Source: Deltaproteobacteria bacterium
GTDB lineage: Bacteria; Desulfobacterota; Binatia; HRBIN30; CADEER01
Assembly (NCBI GenBank): GCA_029262455.1
Contig: JAJCZJ010000024.1
Span: 1 to 64,000 of the forward strand
Direction of reading: 5' to 3'
DNA length: 64,000 nt
This document shows positions 25,442 to 42,328 of this stretch, in pieces. How positions within the stretch are numbered: the first letter of the stretch is position 1; every line of letters starts with the position of its first letter. Below the pieces are notes generated by a model. It was not told the origin of the DNA, did not search any database, and saw only the letters and a list, made by a program, of their open reading frames with translations. The position numbers and the translations under genes were made by a program.

Positions 25442-26110
25442 CTACTTCGGTAGCGGCGTCGGAGTACGGGTGCGGTTCGGGGTCGCCGTGCAGTGGTTCG
25501 CCTGGTCGATCCAGTGAGTCGCGACTAGGTTCTGATCCGCGTCACTCAAGTCGATCGCGGCTCCGCGCTGCGTTCCGTTGCTCATCTGTACTGAGTACTC
25601 CACCGTACCCCCGCCGCAGGCGCTTACGCCATCCAACAATTCGACAAAGAATGCGCGCGCGGGATCACGGACGGCGGCGCTCCAACAGCAGTCATCACTC
25701 GAGGCCGAGACGCTGATTGATCCGAACTTCTCGGGCCCGTCGGGGAAGCAACCGCGAAACGACGATGAGTCTGGGTCGATCGTGAAATGACACCCGTTTA
25801 CCACCGGAGTCCATGTAGCTTTCGGTGAGGCAGGAGAGCCTGTGGAGCAGCCCAACAGAGCATTGTTGACGGCTCTCACCATCGCCGCAACATCGACGGG
25901 TCCGCCGCCATAGTAACACCCAGGGCACGGCTCCGACGACGTCGTCCCGTCGAGCACACAACGCACGCCACGGACCAGCTCAGCGACGCCAACTTTCAGA
26001 TCCGCGTTGCAGTCGCCCACGCACGGTGCGACGACGCCCGCGCCCGCGCTGTTGGCAACCAGTCCAACCACTCCGCACAAAACAGTCAGCCTGCGTAGTT
26101 TCAGCTTCAC
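25442..26110 (-). CDS. Secreted protein with dockerin-like module and Cys-rich beta-domain
   Basis: A protein of 222 residues if started at the GTG at 26110, which has GGGGGA just upstream and begins a signal peptide (KLRRLTVLCGVVGLVANSAGAG); the open frame extends 30 codons further without leader-like sequence. Residues 30-95 are a degenerate dockerin pair (GDCNADLKVGVAELVRGVR ... VDVAAMVRAVNNALLGC). The C-terminal part (VNGCHFTIDPDSSSF ... GSISVSASSDDCCWSAAV) has the look of a BACON/Ig-like beta-sandwich with paired Cys. A short TP tail ends the protein. It converges on the Asp-box gene, with stops 18 nt apart. Function unknown. Confidence 0.68.
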   Translation of the reverse strand: MKLKLRRLTVLCGVVGLVANSAGAGVVAPCVGDCNADLKVGVAELVRGVRCVLDGTTSSEPCPGCYYGGGPVDVAAMVRAVNNALLGCSTGSPASPKATWTPVVNGCHFTIDPDSSSFRGCFPDGPEKFGSISVSASSDDCCWSAAVRDPARAFFVELLDGVSACGGGTVEYSVQMSNGTQRGAAIDLSDADQNLVATHWIDQANHCTATPNRTRTPTPLPK

Positions 26111-26409
26111 GATTCCCCCGCGCTGCGATCTCCGTGGGTAGAGATGCAGAGATCGCGCACAATGCTGCAGCGGAATCAAGATTCGAGCTTTGCAATCCAC
26201 AAGGACTCATACGCCACGTTCGCAGTGCGCAAGCGTAGCGTCGCATTTGTAACGAACCCACCGCGGACCAATAGGCACCTCGCACCCGCGTCAACAGAAA
26301 ACTTGGCAATCAGCAAAATGGCTGTAGCCGCAGGCCTTTGCGTCATTAGACTCCGGCGGTGTCGCCAATCCCAAGCCGCGACAAGTCCATAGACCACAGG
26401 GAGGTCTCA

Positions 26410-30500: not shown

Positions 30501-31586
30501 GCCAACGAAGAGAGTGGCGTCTTCGCTCGCGAGCTCACCGGGACGGTTCTGTTCGAGGATACCGAGATCAGCGATATGACCGAAGATGGCATCGATCTGG
30601 AGAACACCTCGGGCGTGTTGTCCATGACCCTGCGCCGCGTCGTCATCTCCGACAATGTCACTAGCGGTATCGGTGAGAACGGCATGACCGTACGCGCCAA
30701 CGGCACTGCCTCGATGTCAATCGTCATCGAGGACAGCACCTTCGACACTCTCGAGAGCGCCGCGGTCAACATCAACGCCGGCGGTTCCTCAACCGCGAAC
30801 TATTCGCTCACCGCTCGACGTACGACCTTCGACGGCGCTCCCACCGGCGACACCGAAGGTGTCAACGGCCTGCTGGTCCAAGCCACTCGCGGCGGCGCCA
30901 GCACCAGCCTGGCAGCGAGCTTCCTCATCGAGAACAACAACGCTGCCAACACCGGCGGCATTACCAATCACGCATCCAACGCACTCACCTTGAAGGTCGA
31001 CTCAAACGGCTTGATGACCGGCAGTGTCATCAGCAACGACATCGATGGCTCCGAAACAGGCGTCGGCATCGACCTCTTCCCCGACGGCAATGTGGGTGCC
31101 GTCACGTCGCGCTTGCAGACGACCTTGAACGCCAACCGAATCAGCAACACCTCCCTATCCGGCATCTTCGGCGGGCCCCAGGACGGCAACAGCACGACCC
31201 TAGAAGCTACCCTCGCCTGCAATCTGATCGAGGAGCCGACCGGTTCGTTCGAGCATCCAGGAATCTCGATCTCAACGGTCGATGCCGGCACGTTCGCGTG
31301 CTTGAACGTCGCCGACTCTACGGGAGCAGGCCTGAACAACTCGACCGGCGCCAGCTCGTTTCCCGGATTCCGCCTCGGTTACGACTTCTTGGAGCTGGCC
31401 GGGTCGTTCCGCATGCAGGGGATGGGATCGAATATGACCGGCGCCGGTACCACCGCTTTCATCGACGCCAACAACACCAGCACCGATCTTTCACAAGCCT
31501 TCTCCTCGGTCGACGACAACTTCACGAACGCTACTTGCACGACGCCGGCGATCGCACCCGCCTGCGTCTCGACACCCGTGCCGTAA
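27552..31586 (+). CDS. Giant mosaic surface protein: CSLREA domain, beta-helices, shared domain, Big_9-like Ig
   Basis: A protein of 1344 residues. The ATG at 27552 has GGGGGG seven nt upstream (a TTG at 27537 overlaps that site). After the leader come the CSLREA motif (CDADCSLREAVNAANAL) and a first right-handed beta-helix rich in GGGI and VSGN turns (about residues 100-330). Next is a domain (about 380-560; CPPVPLQLCRGASKSVLVVK ... GFKYKDKEL ... VLLKAGAAGKAKSLVKGKG) shared with the protein at 22184. Then follow a TP linker, a Big_9/cadherin-like Ig domain (VPAGSGVLANDTLNGG ... TFTYTL) and a long second beta-helix region (about 680-1300). Probably exported and surface-located; binding or structural role inferred only. 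A strong hairpin follows the stop. Confidence 0.85.
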   Translation: MTNRPIASWSSSRVALTALQLFLVTQIIAPWQSSAVTFTVSKAADTADGTCDADCSLREAVNAANALAGPDTIDLPTGTYALTIANTAGQENAGAEGDLDISGDLTLIGNGPSGTIIDGNAIDGVLHILTGVVDISRVTIRNGNSPSDGGGVLIDGGTVTIDESAIVDNGCAGLGGGIQNSSGSLTVSDSTVSGNTANAGGGIGNFGPLTLTNTTVSGNSCTNDAGGIGSGPATIQLQNVTVTNNAAGTVGGGLELVNANVTNSIIAGNFPTNCTASSIGSSSYSLDDDGTCSLSGTGDVSNAPDAGLGTLQDNGGSTETHALCTGAGTPEAGCAGVSPALDTADPAAPGSGGGACESNDQRGRLRPGDGDGNGSSLCDMGAHETLPTCPPVPLQLCRGASKSVLVVKDNADDSKDKLVWKWIKGAETAFAAFGTPTVDTPYAFCLYDGNQNLITSEVPPAGTCDGKACWKQLGSASNPKGFKYKDKELTPDGVKNVLLKAGAAGKAKSLVKGKGANLLLPPLGVTPDVTAQLINQNGECWAAVFTADDLIKNDGKILKGKVTGLPGILPTPTPASTPTPAVPPVAVGDPYDSTGNVGINVPAGSGVLANDTLNGGSISAFDAASSNGGDVTMNTADGAFTYDPPAGFEGVDTFTYTLINGAGTSMGTVTVTVSDSIWFIDNSQGAGDGRLNSPFNTLAAFDAINGAGGSAPAAGDAIFLYETASGDYTGGVTLENTQALIGQGAGATLASLTGITPPVFSNALPATGGSQPTLTNAAGNGIDLGTGNLIRGLDIGATSGGGTGINGAEVGTLSVGEVGISGPGGAVDLSSTSGAAIAVTLSTISIISSAREGIRLSGVSGSFSIAASDGTITTSTTRAIDIDGDPSIALSVTLELVQVDNSAPNGIVLTDTTGSFTVSGGATPSSGSGGFIMSTTDDGVSLTRATNVSLNGMIVDSTGAHGIDADTVDGLTVTDSDITGAGDANEESGVFARELTGTVLFEDTEISDMTEDGIDLENTSGVLSMTLRRVVISDNVTSGIGENGMTVRANGTASMSIVIEDSTFDTLESAAVNINAGGSSTANYSLTARRTTFDGAPTGDTEGVNGLLVQATRGGASTSLAASFLIENNNAANTGGITNHASNALTLKVDSNGLMTGSVISNDIDGSETGVGIDLFPDGNVGAVTSRLQTTLNANRISNTSLSGIFGGPQDGNSTTLEATLACNLIEEPTGSFEHPGISISTVDAGTFACLNVADSTGAGLNNSTGASSFPGFRLGYDFLELAGSFRMQGMGSNMTGAGTTAFIDANNTSTDLSQAFSSVDDNFTNATCTTPAIAPACVSTPVP

Positions 31587-31591
31587 GCATC

Positions 31592-31618
31592 GAGGCGGCC
31601 GACTTCGTCGGCCGCCTC
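31592..31618 (+). terminator. Strong stem-loop after the mosaic-protein gene
   Basis: A perfect 12-bp inverted repeat (GAGGCGGCCGAC / GTCGGCCGCCTC) with a TTC loop starts 6 nt after the stop codon, followed by AAACAAAAGC. It is intrinsic-terminator-like but lacks a T tract. Confidence 0.6.
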
Positions 31619-31620
31619 AA

Positions 31621-31680
31621 ACAAAAGCTTCATCACTCAAACAAAAGCTTCATCACTCAACCAAGAGCTTCATCAAAGGG
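31621..31680. repeat. 20-bp tandem direct repeat
   Basis: Two exact copies of acaaaagcttcatcactcaa (31621-31640, 31641-31660) and a third degenerate copy (31661-31680) lie just after the terminator hairpin. Confidence 0.75.
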
Positions 31681-31771
31681 AGGATTGGACTTCCCTCCGC
31701 GGCCTTGCTTTATGCGTGGGTTCCACGAGGCATCAGCCTCAAGCCTTTCGCGCACAGGAGATCCTCTGGCA

Positions 31772-33238
31772 ATGAGTCGTTCGATTTTTAGGATGAAGTC
31801 CGTTTTCTTTGGCATTACAGCGAGCATTCTCTTGGCATTGAGCGGATGCGGCGACGATGACTCCGGCCAACCGGCTGTAGTCGGGACTGCAGCCGATCTC
31901 TCGGAAGAGTTCAGCGGCGGTAACGGTCCGTTCATCGGCTCGGCACTGGTGTTCGACGCTCCGGGATACGTCGAGCGCGAGCATGTGGCCGCCGGAATGG
32001 CGACTTCGTACAAGACATCCGAACCGTTCTCGGCGGACGGCCGATGGACGTTTGAGACCGACGACACTGCGTCGTACCGCACCCGAATTCTCGTGCGGCG
32101 CCCCGACAACGCCGCGGACTTCAGCGGCACCGTCGTCGTCGAATGGCTCAACGTCAGCGGCGGACTAGACGCCGATCCCGACTTCGCAAGCCTCGCTGAG
32201 GAACTGATCCGTCAGGGACATGCCTGGGTTGGCGTCTCGGCACAGCTGATCGGTGTCGAGGGCGGCCCGGTCCTCGTCGTCGCACCTGGGGCCGAGGGAC
32301 TTGCAGGGGAAGGTCTGAAGAAACTCGACCCGGCGCGCTACGGCACACTCGACCATCCCGGCGACGGATATTCCTTCGACATCTTCACCCAGATCGCGCG
32401 TGCGCTGCGCAATGGCGAGGCGCTCGGGGGTCTGCGGCCGAATCACGTCCTTGCGTTGGGAGAGTCGCAGTCGGCGATGGCACTCGTCACGTACTACAAC
32501 GGCGTGCACCCGCTCGAGCGCGCCTTCGACGGCTTCTTCGTACACAGTCGCGCTTCGTTCAGTCTTCCCTTGGTTGGACCAGGCGAATTCGCCGACCTTG
32601 CAGGCGCTCTCGGCGGGGTTCCCGCAATTCTTCGCACCGACAGCGACACACCAGTCCTCGAGCTGCAGTCCGAGGGCGATGTAACAGGCCTCCTGTCCTC
32701 AATATCAGCGCGCCAAGACGACACCGACACCTTCCGGCTGTGGGAAGTCGCGGGGGCGGCCCATGCTGACGCCCACTTACTTGGCCCGATCGCCGCTCTG
32801 ACCGACTGCGGGGCGGCGATCAACGACGCACCGTTTCACCTCGTCGCGAAGGCTGCGTTTCGCCATTTCGAAGAATGGGTGCGCGGCGGCCAGCCGCCAC
32901 CATCGGCGCCTCGCTTAGACGATGATGCGCTTGACCCACCAACGCTCCTTCGCGACGACGATGGCATCGCCCTGGGCGGCATCCGCACGCCGCCGGTTGA
33001 CGTTCCGCTGGACCTGCTCTCGGGTGAACCCGGACCGAGCCCCGACCTGATCTGTATACTCCTCGGCTCGACGACGCCGTTCACCGCAGAACGCATCGCC
33101 GCCCTCTACTCATCGCGCGCGGACTACGAACAACAATATGCCACAGCCACCGAAGAAGCCATTGCAGCCGGCTTCGTACTCGAAGTAGACCGCGAAACGC
33201 TGCTCGCTTTTTCCGACCCGTCGAGGGTGGCGAATTGA
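31772..33238 (+). CDS. Lipoprotein alpha/beta-hydrolase domain-containing protein (Abhydrolase_10-like)
   Basis: A protein of 488 residues from the ATG at 31772 (GGAG 11 nt upstream); the open frame begins much earlier, inside the previous gene's frame, without leader-like sequence. A lipobox leader (ITASILLALSGC followed by GDD) predicts an acylated lipoprotein. The body has the features of the alpha/beta hydrolase domain family with GTVVVEWLNVSGGLDADPDF, GHAWVGVSAQLIGVEGG, a nucleophile elbow LALGESQSAMAL (GxSxS type) and a late WEVAGAAHADAH that supplies the His. The family has no well-defined substrate; esterase or lactonase activity is an inference. Confidence 0.82.
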   Translation: MSRSIFRMKSVFFGITASILLALSGCGDDDSGQPAVVGTAADLSEEFSGGNGPFIGSALVFDAPGYVEREHVAAGMATSYKTSEPFSADGRWTFETDDTASYRTRILVRRPDNAADFSGTVVVEWLNVSGGLDADPDFASLAEELIRQGHAWVGVSAQLIGVEGGPVLVVAPGAEGLAGEGLKKLDPARYGTLDHPGDGYSFDIFTQIARALRNGEALGGLRPNHVLALGESQSAMALVTYYNGVHPLERAFDGFFVHSRASFSLPLVGPGEFADLAGALGGVPAILRTDSDTPVLELQSEGDVTGLLSSISARQDDTDTFRLWEVAGAAHADAHLLGPIAALTDCGAAINDAPFHLVAKAAFRHFEEWVRGGQPPPSAPRLDDDALDPPTLLRDDDGIALGGIRTPPVDVPLDLLSGEPGPSPDLICILLGSTTPFTAERIAALYSSRADYEQQYATATEEAIAAGFVLEVDRETLLAFSDPSRVAN

Positions 33239-33336
33239 TTCGACAGCCGCCCCCGGCTAGGCGTCGTTCCCCTTGATCGTCGTAGCCAGACGACGTACCC
33301 AGACAAAGTTAGCAGCAATTCATCGGAGGGTAGACC

Positions 33337-33900
33337 GTGACCAGAGTACGATCACTGGAAGGCCGTGAGGCCGGACTCCTAGCAGGCATCATTCAGCTGA
33401 TCCTGCGTATGAATGTCGGCAAGAACGTCAACCCAATCAAAGTTCAGGCGCACTCCTGGCGTGGGATGCTCGCCAACTTTCTCGCCAACGCGATTCTCAG
33501 CACTGGACGGACAAAGATTGGCAACGACCTCCGTGAGCTCGTAAAGATCCGCGCCGCAGCTCGCAACGGATGCCCCTTCTGAATGGACATCCACGCCGCC
33601 GTCGGCGGCGACGAAGGATTGACCCGCAAGCAGATCGACGCCGCCCTTCTGCGCACCGATGCTTCGGCCCTACCGGTACGAGAACAGCTCGCGCTCGAGT
33701 ACTCCGACCGCGTAAGCGCCACGCCGGTGGATGTACCCGACGATTTCTTCGAAAAGCTCAAGGCCGAGTTTTCGGAGGAAGAAATCGTCGAACTCACTTC
33801 CCACATCGCGCACGAGAACTACAACGCGAAATCAAATCGCCCGCTGCGCGTCGAACCGAACGACTTCTGTCCGATTCCGCCACCCGAACCCGCGAAGTAG
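33337..33900 (+). CDS. AhpD-like / carboxymuconolactone decarboxylase family protein, probable selenoprotein (in-frame TGA at 33580-33582)
   Basis: From a GTG at 33337 with GGAGG eight nt upstream, the frame runs 81 codons, meets TGA at 33580-33582, and continues in the same frame for 105 more codons to TAG. Both halves join to a standard CMD/AhpD-family protein (187 residues). ELVKIRAAARNGCPF is followed by the TGA position and MDIHAAVGGDEGLTRKQ. Family members read NGCxFCxDxH, so TGA stands exactly at the second redox Cys (position 82; Cys79 is kept), giving CPFU. The downstream half retains family signatures (LALEYSDRVSATP, IVELTSHIAHEN). Members are thiol peroxidase-reductase partners or decarboxylases; the CxxC type is redox active. 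AhpD-like selenoproteins are known in bacteria. The alternative is a nonsense mutation at a Cys codon; the intact second half argues against it. No selenocysteine machinery gene is in this window. Confidence 0.75.
33583..33610 (+). promoter_or_regulatory. Candidate bacterial SECIS hairpin
   Basis: Directly after the in-frame TGA (33580-33582), positions 33594-33600 (CGCCGCC) pair with 33604-33610 (GGCGGCG) around a GTC loop. The loop begins 18 nt after the TGA, and its first base is G. Known bacterial SECIS elements have an apical loop roughly 16-37 nt past the TGA, with G among the first loop bases. GC-rich codons alone could produce such a stem, so this supports but does not prove recoding. 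Confidence 0.5.
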
Positions 33901-33947
33901 GCGCGTACCGACAACGGCGCTGCGCGCCGTCGAGGAATTACCCTGCC

Positions 33948-34580
33948 CTACGCTTCCGCTGACTGAATCATGCGGGCGCCAACCCAAACCAGAGCGCAGA
34001 CCACTCCGGTCGCAACGACGATGCTGGCAACCGGGTACGCTACCCACCACGAACCGAGGATCGCCATCACCAACGCCGAAGAGAAAGCACCAGTAGCGAT
34101 CGCCAACAGCACCGAACGAAAAGGCATCTTCGACAACCCCGCCAGTACGACGACGTACTCCGCCGGGCCCCCCAGCGCACGACCCAACGCTACCGCATAC
34201 AAGCCCCAGCGGTCGTAGAAAACACGCGCTCGCTCGAGGTCGCGTTCGCCGACGATGAGCCGCGCACCGCGCTCACCGAGCATTCGAGTGATACCGTACC
34301 CGATCAAACCGCCCACCGTCGCAGCGCTACCGCCGATCAATGCCCCCTGCCATGGGCCGTAGATCAGACCAAGCGTAAAGATCGTCGGATCGGAAGGCAG
34401 CGGCAGCACCGCGTCGCCGACGATCAAGGCAACGCCGGCAGCCCATGCCCAATCGCCATAGCCGCGCAAAATGACCGCGAGCTCGTCGACCGACTCCGGA
34501 AAGTCCAGATGGTCGCCGAAAAGGAACAGCATCGATCCGCCAAAGCAGAGAAATGCCAAAGGGATGAGCAAGAGTCGCAT
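33948..34580 (-). CDS. DedA/VTT-domain inner-membrane protein
   Basis: A protein of 210 residues with about five hydrophobic segments. The VTT (SNARE-associated/DedA) core is visible: DAVLPLPSDPTIFTLGLIYG, GALIGGSAATVGGLIGYGIT, a Gly-Arg pair region YDRWGLYAVALGRALGGPAEY and the re-entrant-loop-like sequence VVVLAGLSKMPFRSVLLAIA. The family includes lipid scramblase/flippase-type transporters (undecaprenyl phosphate or phospholipids). Which lipid it moves is not visible. It converges on the AhpD-like gene and stands alone. Confidence 0.8.
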   Translation of the reverse strand: MRLLLIPLAFLCFGGSMLFLFGDHLDFPESVDELAVILRGYGDWAWAAGVALIVGDAVLPLPSDPTIFTLGLIYGPWQGALIGGSAATVGGLIGYGITRMLGERGARLIVGERDLERARVFYDRWGLYAVALGRALGGPAEYVVVLAGLSKMPFRSVLLAIATGAFSSALVMAILGSWWVAYPVASIVVATGVVCALVWVGARMIQSAEA

Positions 34581-37035: not shown

Positions 37036-38202
37036 ATGCGCATCTTTCCCTACGCCATGGTCTGCTTCGGAATTGAACGAATCGCCGCCGTCACCTTGGC
37101 CGCCCTGCTCCTGGTCTCGCCAATGTTGGTATCGGCTGATTGCGCTTGCGACTGCAATGAAGACGGCCGAGTTCAAGTCGGAGAACTCGTGCGCGCGGTT
37201 GGCATTAGCCTGGGACGGCTCGATGTGTCGAGCTGCCCCGCGGTCTTGGACTCGCCTTGTCTAGTTTGCCCCATCGCTGTCGACACCCTGGTCGGCTGCG
37301 TCCGAAACGCCCTCAACGGATGCCCTGGGCGTACCACACCAACGCTCAAACCTCCCCCGACACCAACTCTCGAACCGGACGTCACTACCCCGACTTCGGT
37401 AGCCGGATTCATCATCACCGGCACGGTTAGGGAACGCCCGATTGCTGCGGGCCTCGCGAGAGGAGTGCCTGTGGTCATCGAACCCCTCAATCGAGAGACA
37501 CACACGAGCGTGTCGGACGGAACGTTTCGCTTCGAAGGAATCCCCGCCGGAGACTATACTCTGCGCTCCCGCCTCGGATGCAATCCGTTCGGTTGCTGGG
37601 CTCCACTCGAGCTAACGGTGACATCGGACGCGCACGTTGCGATCGTGATGGTCATACGTACTCCAACACCCACCCGCACATTGACTCACACCCGAACTAG
37701 GCCACCCACCCCGACACCAACCATTACGCCTGGCGGGCCGACGCTTACTCCGACCTCCACCCCCACACCTACGCTGACTCGGACGGGTCCACACACCCGA
37801 ACCCCAACAATGACACCTGGCGGACCGACCCGAACCCCCACACGCACCTGCACGTGCATCCGGCCCGAACTTTTTCCGTCAGGTCGGGCGGTTGCCTCGA
37901 GAGACAGAGTCGTCGCTGGCCAGAGGGTCACGTTGACCGCGGAGCTATCAGGATCGGCGCAACCATCCAGCGTCAAGTGGAAGCAGATCGCCGGAGATGA
38001 CGACCCGGCCGTTCCGATCATACGTCCCAACAGTGTCTCGATAAGCTTCGTAGCTCCGCAAGTGGATCAAGAGGCCGTGATACATTTCTCGATGGAGTAC
38101 TGCGGAATTCGCCAAGGACGGTTCGTGCCGCCAAGAACAGAGTGCGGGAATGATCACGTCAGCGTGACGATCGTCCCGACGCGATTCCTCGACGACCCTT
38201 AG
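37036..38202 (+). CDS. Secreted protein with dockerin-like module, carboxypeptidase-regulatory-like domain and TP linker
   Basis: A protein of 388 residues. The leader (IAAVTLAALLLVSPMLVSAD) is followed by a dockerin-like pair: CDCNEDGRVQVGELVRAVG then CPIAVDTLVGCVRNALNGCP, the second loop being degenerate. Residues 130-195 look like a carboxypeptidase-regulatory-like (transthyretin-type) domain (GTVRERPIAAGLARGVPVVI ... FRFEGIPAGDYTLRSR). A Thr/Pro/His linker of about 60 residues (TPTPTRTLTHTRTRPPTPTP) leads to a C-terminal beta-rich domain (LTAELSGSAQPSSVKWKQIA). Function unknown; exported. Hexamer repeats lie on both sides of the gene. Confidence 0.75.
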   Translation: MRIFPYAMVCFGIERIAAVTLAALLLVSPMLVSADCACDCNEDGRVQVGELVRAVGISLGRLDVSSCPAVLDSPCLVCPIAVDTLVGCVRNALNGCPGRTTPTLKPPPTPTLEPDVTTPTSVAGFIITGTVRERPIAAGLARGVPVVIEPLNRETHTSVSDGTFRFEGIPAGDYTLRSRLGCNPFGCWAPLELTVTSDAHVAIVMVIRTPTPTRTLTHTRTRPPTPTPTITPGGPTLTPTSTPTPTLTRTGPHTRTPTMTPGGPTRTPTRTCTCIRPELFPSGRAVASRDRVVAGQRVTLTAELSGSAQPSSVKWKQIAGDDDPAVPIIRPNSVSISFVAPQVDQEAVIHFSMEYCGIRQGRFVPPRTECGNDHVSVTIVPTRFLDDP

Positions 38203-39691: not shown

Positions 39692-42328
39692 ATGCATCAG
39701 GTGACGACCAACCGGTCACGTTCGCAGTCTGGCCATGGACGATTGGCGAATTCCGCACTCGCGCGCAGCATCGGGGCAAGCCTGCGGGCTACCGGCACGT
39801 TTCTATCTGCCGCCGCCATCCTACTCGCGGCACTCGCTCCGACAGCTGGTGTCGCCCAGATCACAGAGATTATCGACTCCGCCGGCGATGGGACAAACGT
39901 TCTCGACGAACCCAGGGGGGTTGCGGTCGACGGCGTCGGCAACGTCTATGTCCTCGGTGGGCCGCCCCACAACGCCTTCCGCATAACCCCTGGGGGGACG
40001 ATTACTCAGATCATCGACGCTACTGGAGACGGGACCAATCCTTTCAGTTTCGCATTTGGTATCGACGCCGATGCCGCGGGCAACGCCTATGTCACCGGCT
40101 TTGGCACCAACAACGCTTTCAAGATTTCGCTCGGTGGGACGATCACGCAAATCATCGATTCAACCGGCGACGGCTTAGGCAACACCCTCGTCACGGCACG
40201 GGGAATAGCAGTCGACGGTTCTGGTAACGTCTTCGTCGGCGCCGGCAATGGCGGAGGCTCCTCATTTTATAAGGTCTTCAAGATCACCCCGGGGGGGACG
40301 ATCAGTGTGATCCTCAGTGACGCCCATGGCCTTTCCTCCGGCGCCGATGAAATTTCCACCGACGCCGCAGGCAATGTCTACGTCGCGGTGCGCAACGACG
40401 ACAACGCCTACAAGATCACCCCGGGCGGGACCGTCACTGAGATCATCAACGCGACAGGTGACGGCACCAACCCTCTCGGCGAGCCAATCGGAATCGCAGC
40501 CGATAGCTCGGGCAACGTATTCGTCGCCGGTGTGATCACAGCCAACCTGTTCAAGATCACACCGGGCGGCGCGATCTCCGAAGTCTTTTCCGGGTTTCCT
40601 CTGTTGAGCCCAGTGAAGGTCGCAACCGATGGCGCCGGGAACGCCTACGTAGCATCCTACCTCGGCGATCGGGTGATGAAGTTTACTCCCGGTGGGGCGG
40701 TAAGCTCGATCATCTTGTCGACCGGCGACGGTTTGGGCAACCCTCTAACCAGGCCTTTCGGGGTCGCTGTGGACGCATCCGGCAACGTCTTCGTGTCCGG
40801 AGAGGACAGCGACAACGTCTTCAAGGTCCCGCCGCCGACTCCCACGCCCACCCACACTCCGACGAGCACGCAGACAGACACTCCAACCCAGACTCCGACC
40901 GCTACGCCGACTCACACGCCCACACAAACCCCGACGTCTACTCCCACTCACACACCCACGGACACGCCGACGTCTACTCCCACTCACACACCCACGGACA
41001 CGCCGACTCACACCCCGACGTCTACTCCCACTCACACACCCACGCACACACCGACTCACACGCAGACACAGACCCCGACCGACACGCCGACCCAAACGCC
41101 GACAAGCACTCCAACCCAAACTCCAACCGCTACGCCGACCCCGACATTCACCCCGATCCCGGGAGGCATCGGGGTCATCGGCCCCCTCGGCGGCACGATC
41201 ATCAGCGACAACGGCAGGCTCATCGTGGAGATTCCACCAGGCGCCTTGACCACGAACCAGAACATCAGCCTGCTCGAGAGTCCCGGCGGAAGCGATTTCG
41301 AGATCAGGCGCAATCGCAACAACACGAAAGTGTACAGTATCAGTGCCAAGCCAGCCGGGCTCCAGTTCCTGCTACCTGTGAAGACGACCTTCCTCTGGGA
41401 CGATCGCGACGGCGATGGACTGGTCGATCTCGGCGTTTGCCAGAGTTCTGGACCGGATCTCGGTGAGAGCTGCGACAAAAACGCCGACTGCACCTCGAAC
41501 CGCTGCTCCAGGTTCAGCAATCTCGAGAAGAACAAGTTAGTCCTCAACCGCAACGCCAACCGCTACAACCAGAACGGCTTCAACCAGCCTCCGGACGAGA
41601 CGCTGTGCGACCAGCACTTCGCCCCGGGTAGCTGCACGACCGCCGTCGCCGACTGTAACGATCTCGCGGGAACCGGCAAAAGTACGGTCGCCCAGTGCTG
41701 CGACACGACGAGCAATCAATGGCAGGGGCAGACCTGCAGCTTCAGCGAGTTTTATCTAGGCGAGCACTCCGGCAACTTGATTTCGAGTCGCGGCAACACC
41801 ACCCGCGATTGCAACGCGGAGTGGTCGGTCCTCAACCCGTACAACGACCCGCATCTCTCGGGCCGCGGCTTGCCACACTTCCGGCAAACATGCCAAGACG
41901 GAAACCCCGATTGCGACCAAGACGGCGTAGCCGACGGCAAGTGCTTGTTCGAAACGCGCGTCTGCCTGAACGTCGAGGACAAGCGCTTGGCCGACCGATC
42001 CGGCAACGTCCTCTGTCAACCGACGGACGTGGTGAGCTGGGAACTGCGCCGACCGCGCCCAGATGACAACGACCCCGTCGTTGCGTCCAACGCAGTGGCG
42101 CTGCGAGACGCCGTAGCGGCGCTCGGGAACGCCACCATCAGCGGCAACCACCAACAAACCGTGACTTTCGCCCCCGGCGTGTCTAGCGCAGTCTGCACCG
42201 ACGCAGTCCTCATCGAGGTACCGCTGCGGGCGCCTGGACGCAGGGGACGGTTGGCCATGCGGACCGAGACTGAGTCGTCGGGCGCGGATCGCGACCGCGA
42301 TCCGCTGAGGCTCACCTGCGAACCGTGA
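39692..42328 (+). CDS. Secreted NHL/SBBP-type repeat protein with TP linker and ZU5-like domain
   Basis: A protein of 878 residues, ATG preceded by GGGGGG. A long N-terminal leader contains the hydrophobic stretch [20 protein letters not shown]. Residues 50-380 are about eight repeats built on [15 protein letters not shown] and [15 protein letters not shown], i.e. NHL/SBBP beta-propeller blades. A Thr/Pro/His linker of about 110 residues follows (TPTHTPT units). Then comes a ZU5-like segment ([20 protein letters not shown] then [13 protein letters not shown]) and a Cys-rich C-terminal region ([18 protein letters not shown] ... [13 protein letters not shown]). No catalytic motif is seen. Likely exported and surface-associated. 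Confidence 0.83.

Follow-up and report, generated by a model that had tools for sequence, protein, structure and literature searches.

A probable AhpD-like selenoprotein with a CxxU active site encoded in the genome of a Deltaproteobacteria bacterium

Main finding

In the 64,000-nucleotide stretch of DNA analyzed here (positions 1 to 64,000 of contig JAJCZJ010000024.1 of a Deltaproteobacteria bacterium; hereafter, the window), an AhpD/CMD-family gene carries an in-frame UGA at codon 82, and the gene most probably (probability of about 95%) encodes an AhpD-like selenoprotein, in which this UGA is recoded to selenocysteine (Sec) via a SECIS hairpin. This reading is based on the structure of the gene, the Sec machinery of the genome, homologues with their conservation and covariation, and the fold predicted for the protein, from which we infer both Sec insertion and activity. 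Translation with Sec had been proposed in the initial annotation of this DNA, and at the sequence level the proposal is supported by the machinery, by the homologues at codon 82 and by a covarying hairpin. Proteins of this kind have been known since 2005 and the gene is ordinary in kind; this branch, on the other hand, has no NCBIfam model and its distribution is patchy.

The gene and its active-site motif

The frame extends from the GTG start to a TAG stop at 33898-33900 and, as the initial annotation had described, is open on either side of a single in-frame TGA (Table 1). If this TGA is read, the 187 sense codons specify a 187-residue AhpD/CMD-family protein; with the standard code, the frame is split into two ORFs (33337-33582 and 33583-33900). 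The TGA occupies the second active-site position of an NGCPFU motif, in agreement with its earlier placement at the Cys position of CxxC, giving CPFU. The match to the Pfam CMD domain (PF02627) spans the TGA (residues 52-109, 41.5 bits against a cut-off of 23), and the score with TIGR00778 is also above threshold (37.2 against a cut-off of 27.8).

Table 1. Features of the putative selenoprotein gene (window coordinates)
Feature	Coordinates	Strand	Details
Shine-Dalgarno-like GGAGGG, upstream of the GTG start	33325..33330	+	Sequence
Putative Sec-containing AhpD/CMD-like gene	33337..33900	+	GTG start, TAG stop, UGA predicted to be read as Sec
CxxU active-site motif	33571..33582	+	Cys79 (33571-33573) to predicted Sec82 (TGA, 33580-33582)
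Bacterial SECIS-like hairpin	33594..33610	+	7-bp stem 33594-33600/33604-33610, loop GUC 33601-33603

Predicted fold and proposed mechanism

An AlphaFold model based on a 32-row alignment, with Sec modelled as Cys, is all helical (mean pLDDT of 94.6, pTM of 0.90), and the CxxU motif begins the helix formed by residues 80-92. Foldseek matched this model to AhpD-core structures, including 2prr, 6k40, 2gmy and others, with TM-scores of up to 0.82 on the query, and the predicted structure is an all-helical AhpD-core fold. The relay described for AhpD of M. tuberculosis is formed by Glu118, Cys130, His132, Cys133 and His137, and that of PA0269 by Glu36, Cys48, Tyr50, Cys51 and His55 (PMC3141380). 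Judged by sequence, Glu67, Cys79, Phe81, Sec82 and His86 have this spacing in the window protein, so that the Glu/Cys/Cys/His proton relay is found with Sec replacing the second Cys; the position of His86 is often occupied by Asn or Gly in relatives.

According to the mechanism that we propose, the SECIS hairpin would recruit SelB-GTP-Sec-tRNA(Sec) and thereby assist in recoding the UGA upstream of it, at codon 82, so that Sec is inserted and translation proceeds as far as the TAG at 33898. This would yield an all-helical AhpD-core protein whose redox-active Cys79-Pro-Phe-Sec82 opens the second active-site helix. Sec82, which occupies the position of AhpD's second cysteine, would probably attack a peroxide or an oxidised partner, Cys79 would resolve Sec82 as a selenenylsulfide, and Glu67 and His86 would be the likely proton relay. 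By analogy, the most likely role of the protein is therefore that of a thiol/selenol peroxidase or redox adaptor, in which Sec82 would be the nucleophile and Cys79 the resolving residue.

A real, if lesser, chance has to be given to a selenoprotein that is not a peroxidase and serves as a redox adaptor or disulfide reductase or acts on another substrate, as does the AhpD-fold debrominase Bmp8. AhpD-fold proteins vary in activity, Foldseek also matched our model to Bmp8 (6ohi/6ohj), no peroxiredoxin gene was recognised alongside the gene, and the neighbourhood is not conserved at two homologous loci (L012 and L009). However, the coincidence of Glu67, Cys79, Sec82 and His86 with the AhpD relay positions, as well as the significant E-values of relatives against TIGR01926, a model named "peroxidase-related enzyme", argue against this alternative.

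Relationship to known proteins and family models

The first description of AhpD-like CxxU selenoproteins of the COG2128/YciW type dates from 2005 and came from the Sargasso Sea (PMC1088965), and ocean metagenomes commonly contain them (PMC1088965, PMC2398784, PMC9312934, PMC13188914); the existence of such proteins in bacteria, which the initial annotation took as established, is documented (PMC1088965, PMC13188914). The window protein resembles the COG2128/YciW-type CxxU selenoprotein, which is listed under TIGR01926 (PMC13188914), in its CMD/AhpD core, in having Sec as the second residue of the CxxU pair, in a UGA that is followed by a bacterial SECIS and in the existence of Cys homologues, but it scores only 44 bits with TIGR01926 (cut-off 81.8) and represents a more divergent branch. 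The best family match is NF053654 (GroundWater_YciW, YciW-related (seleno)protein; NCBIfam), the name of which allows Sec and which is matched by all 32 aligned relatives; the window protein, however, reaches 92.7 bits against a cut-off of 310, over residues 59-173 only, and is not a member by the NCBI definition. Falling below the cut-offs of both models, it therefore belongs to a divergent branch without a curated NCBIfam model of its own.

The Cys-type proteins PA0269 and M. tuberculosis AhpD share with the window protein the two-helix active-site motif with Glu/Cys/Cys/His at fixed spacing, but the window protein has Sec for the second Cys. Its chain is longer than that of PA0269, and M. 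tuberculosis AhpD, whose core sits elsewhere in the chain, is a poor fold match; BLASTP against a provisional M. tuberculosis AhpD sequence gave no meaningful match and carries no weight here. The "peroxidase-related" AhpD-core proteins 2prr, 6k40 and 2oyo (about 190 residues) share the overall fold (TM-scores of 0.75-0.82) but show about 20% identity and are not reported as selenoproteins.

Conservation of codon 82 and of the downstream sequence

The nearest relative (L025; 86% identity in the genome search and 84% in the full alignment), a second protein (L054) with 76% identity, and three proteins with 65-68% identity from MAGs deposited as Bacillota and Acidobacteria (L009-L011) are all encoded by genes with TGA at codon 82. 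A class-wide search yielded a match at E <= 1e-10 in 72 of 148 genomes, and nearly all of the best matches had exactly one TGA. Among the loci read in detail, 36 carry TGA at codon 82 and the CxxC relatives carry TGC or TGT, while in very distant CMD proteins that lack CxxC this position is taken by other residues (Glu, Gly); TAA or TAG was found at codon 82 in none of the homologue loci read. Column 82 is an invariant Cys/Sec in the 32-sequence alignment. The expectation of Cys or TGA at position 82 was thus borne out, with TGA in close relatives and TGA or Cys in more distant ones.

The same loci bear on whether translation could end at the UGA and restart at the AUG next to it (TGAATG), yielding two proteins. 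While an ATG at 33583, directly after the TGA, does open a 105-aa ORF, codon 83 is ATG in 12 and GTG in 7 of the 36 UGA homologues and is ATT, CTC, AAG, AGC, ACG or another codon in the rest; since codon 83 is often no start codon, reinitiation is not a common design of the UGA genes. Moreover, the sequence ahead of 33583 has no Shine-Dalgarno-like site, the CMD domain would be severed at its active site, and the Cys homologues are single proteins, all of which leaves two separate proteins highly improbable.

Even less probable is a pseudogene, in which an ordinary AhpD gene of the Cys type would have gained the TGA by nonsense mutation or through a sequencing error. One substitution, from TGC or TGT to TGA, would suffice for this and the frame is otherwise open, but the identical TGA recurs in homologues, both close and distant, from many genomes, including those of other phyla, and the pseudogene reading is refuted by this conservation across independent assemblies. 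Purifying selection on the two halves of the gene also matches: in comparisons of the window gene with L025, L054 and L009, dN/dS was 0.07, 0.12 and 0.14, respectively, upstream of the TGA and 0.09, 0.10 and 0.17 downstream of it. The downstream half is about as constrained as the upstream half (range of about 0.07-0.17), and decay after a nonsense mutation is therefore excluded; the downstream half is intact, as had been noted.

The SECIS-like hairpin

The hairpin described in the initial annotation, with a 7-bp stem and a loop that begins with G 18 nt past the TGA, was recovered exactly, and its local energy is -12.8 kcal/mol. Published constraints for bacterial SECIS elements are a loop of 3-9 nt, a stem of 4-16 bp, a G within the first two loop positions, a distance of 16-37 nt from the UGA and an MFE <= -7.5 kcal/mol (PMC13188914), and with its loop of 3 nt the hairpin satisfies all of them; the fit was judged against these published constraints rather than by bSECISearch.

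Taken by itself, the window hairpin stands out less. When 61 nt of the single sequence were folded, the result did not reach significance (z = -0.22), and an Rfam scan of 33000-34100 gave no match, leaving the hairpin without a known RNA family model. Because Ala-Ala-Val-Gly-Gly in G+C-rich codons is prone to such stems, synonymous-codon randomisation was performed, in which the window gene alone was only marginally better than the null (p = 0.042), whereas p <= 0.05 was reached by 20 of 36 UGA genes as compared to 1 of 24 non-UGA genes. Some Cys relatives (e.g., L035, L049 and L081) form stable local hairpins by composition, and the test therefore lies in the contrast between the UGA and non-UGA groups and not in the stem of any one gene.

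Across homologues, a hairpin is kept at this distance from the UGA in nearly all UGA relatives, with stems that include CGCCGCC/GGCGGCG, CUCUGCC/GGCAGAG and GCAUCC/GGAUGC. In 26 aligned UGA genes, 91.8% of the cells are paired, as compared to 31-67% for slid versions, and 22 cells are changed on both sides of the stem. The covariation score of 0.317 exceeds that of shuffled alignments (0.142 +/- 0.024; 0 of 500 shuffles as high) and of slid versions (<= 0.116). The hairpin thus fits the bacterial SECIS model and covaries across homologues; judged by sequence, it is convincing as a conserved feature and moderate in isolation, and its weight rests on homologue conservation.

Selenocysteine machinery of the host genome

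The four genes that the initial annotation had named as a check, selA, selB, selC and selD, were all found in the host genome (7.34 Mb, 100% complete, 1.63% contamination), and the absence of Sec genes, which would have spoken against a selenoprotein, does not apply to this complete set. The tRNA-Sec (selC) scores 74.9 bits, over the cut-off, and was confirmed by ARAGORN with the anticodon TCA; selA (562 bits) adjoins selB (375 bits) on contig C88, and the selD match (272 bits) lies within a 720-residue protein. A genome-wide reading of UGA as another residue, through an altered code or a Trp, Gly or Cys suppressor tRNA, has only the in-frame TGA itself in its favour and a negligible probability, given that TGA is a stop elsewhere in the window (e.g., at the end of the Abhydrolase_10 gene at 33238), that a canonical tRNA-Sec is present with selA, selB and selD, and that Cys is the residue swapped with TGA in close-enough relatives.

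The selD protein (L021:346-2508, contig C11 of the same genome) has an N-terminal pyridine-nucleotide oxidoreductase-like part, and this 720-aa fusion resembles the Ndh-SelD fusions (PMC2398784). Its motif reads CGGC, without Sec.

Sec/Cys switching and distribution

Every UGA-bearing genome tested has selA, tRNA-Sec or both. Three UGA-bearing drafts (G523, G454 and G447) have tRNA-Sec and lack selA, and two others (G360 and G476) have selA with a tRNA-Sec that is marginal or is below the cut-off or absent; these gaps in the machinery are most likely assembly gaps. Cys forms are also found in several selA-bearing genomes (e.g., G229, G347 and G478), as would be the case with free exchange between Sec and Cys forms.

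On a maximum-likelihood tree of 51 proteins, the Sec label requires 5 changes (shuffled mean 13.2; 0 of 500 shuffles as low). The Cys protein L076 and the Sec protein L071 form a well-supported pair, placing a Cys form within a Sec clade. L076 has no hairpin at the SECIS position, and its host genome, G474, yielded no selA match and no tRNA-Sec over the cut-off, the pattern to be expected of a gene that reverted from Sec to Cys once the Sec trait had been lost. Such switching along with loss of the Sec machinery provides a clean natural case for asking why selenium is kept or lost.

Searches of three other genomes of the same genus (G455, G456 and G457) found no close orthologue of the Sec-AhpD gene, and this absence, together with the 65-68% identical homologues in other phyla, suggests horizontal transfer or repeated loss. 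A plasmid search found distant CMD proteins only, with at most about 34% identity among the matches listed. We tentatively suggest, as a rather doubtful extension, that the window protein, L025, L054, L009, L010 and L011 could form a distinct, unmodelled clade of Sec-dependent AhpD proteins that moved between phyla by single-gene transfer, is kept only with the Sec machinery and acts on a substrate of its own rather than on generic peroxides.

A close relative in another genome (L079:1501-1779, genome G487) shows 67% identity over residues 1-70 and an in-frame deletion of about residues 71-163, which removes the AhpD core and the CxxU site and leaves a 92-residue protein, in a genome that keeps selA and tRNA-Sec. 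Slippage between short repeats is suggested by a CGCGAA close to the junction, unless the deletion is an assembly error.

Annotation and genomic neighbourhood

Standard gene calling gives two fragments, so this conserved redox protein has probably been missed or truncated in annotations of the lineage, and the immediate use of our analysis is annotation correction in a poorly studied lineage. No conserved operon partner was found, as the neighbours differ among L012, L009 and the window. In the window, the gene is flanked by genes for an Abhydrolase_10 protein (31298-33238, + strand) and a VTT-domain membrane protein (33948-34580, - strand), neither of which is the adjoining gene in L009 or L012.

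Elsewhere in the window, two genes on the + strand (37036-38202 and 39692-42328) encode proteins that look secreted and contain long linkers of Thr-Pro repeats (TPTPTxTP). The first of these, starting at 37036, also bears a CDCNxDGxVxVxELVRAV-type repeat, which is similar to a repeat at 25442-26200 on the - strand.
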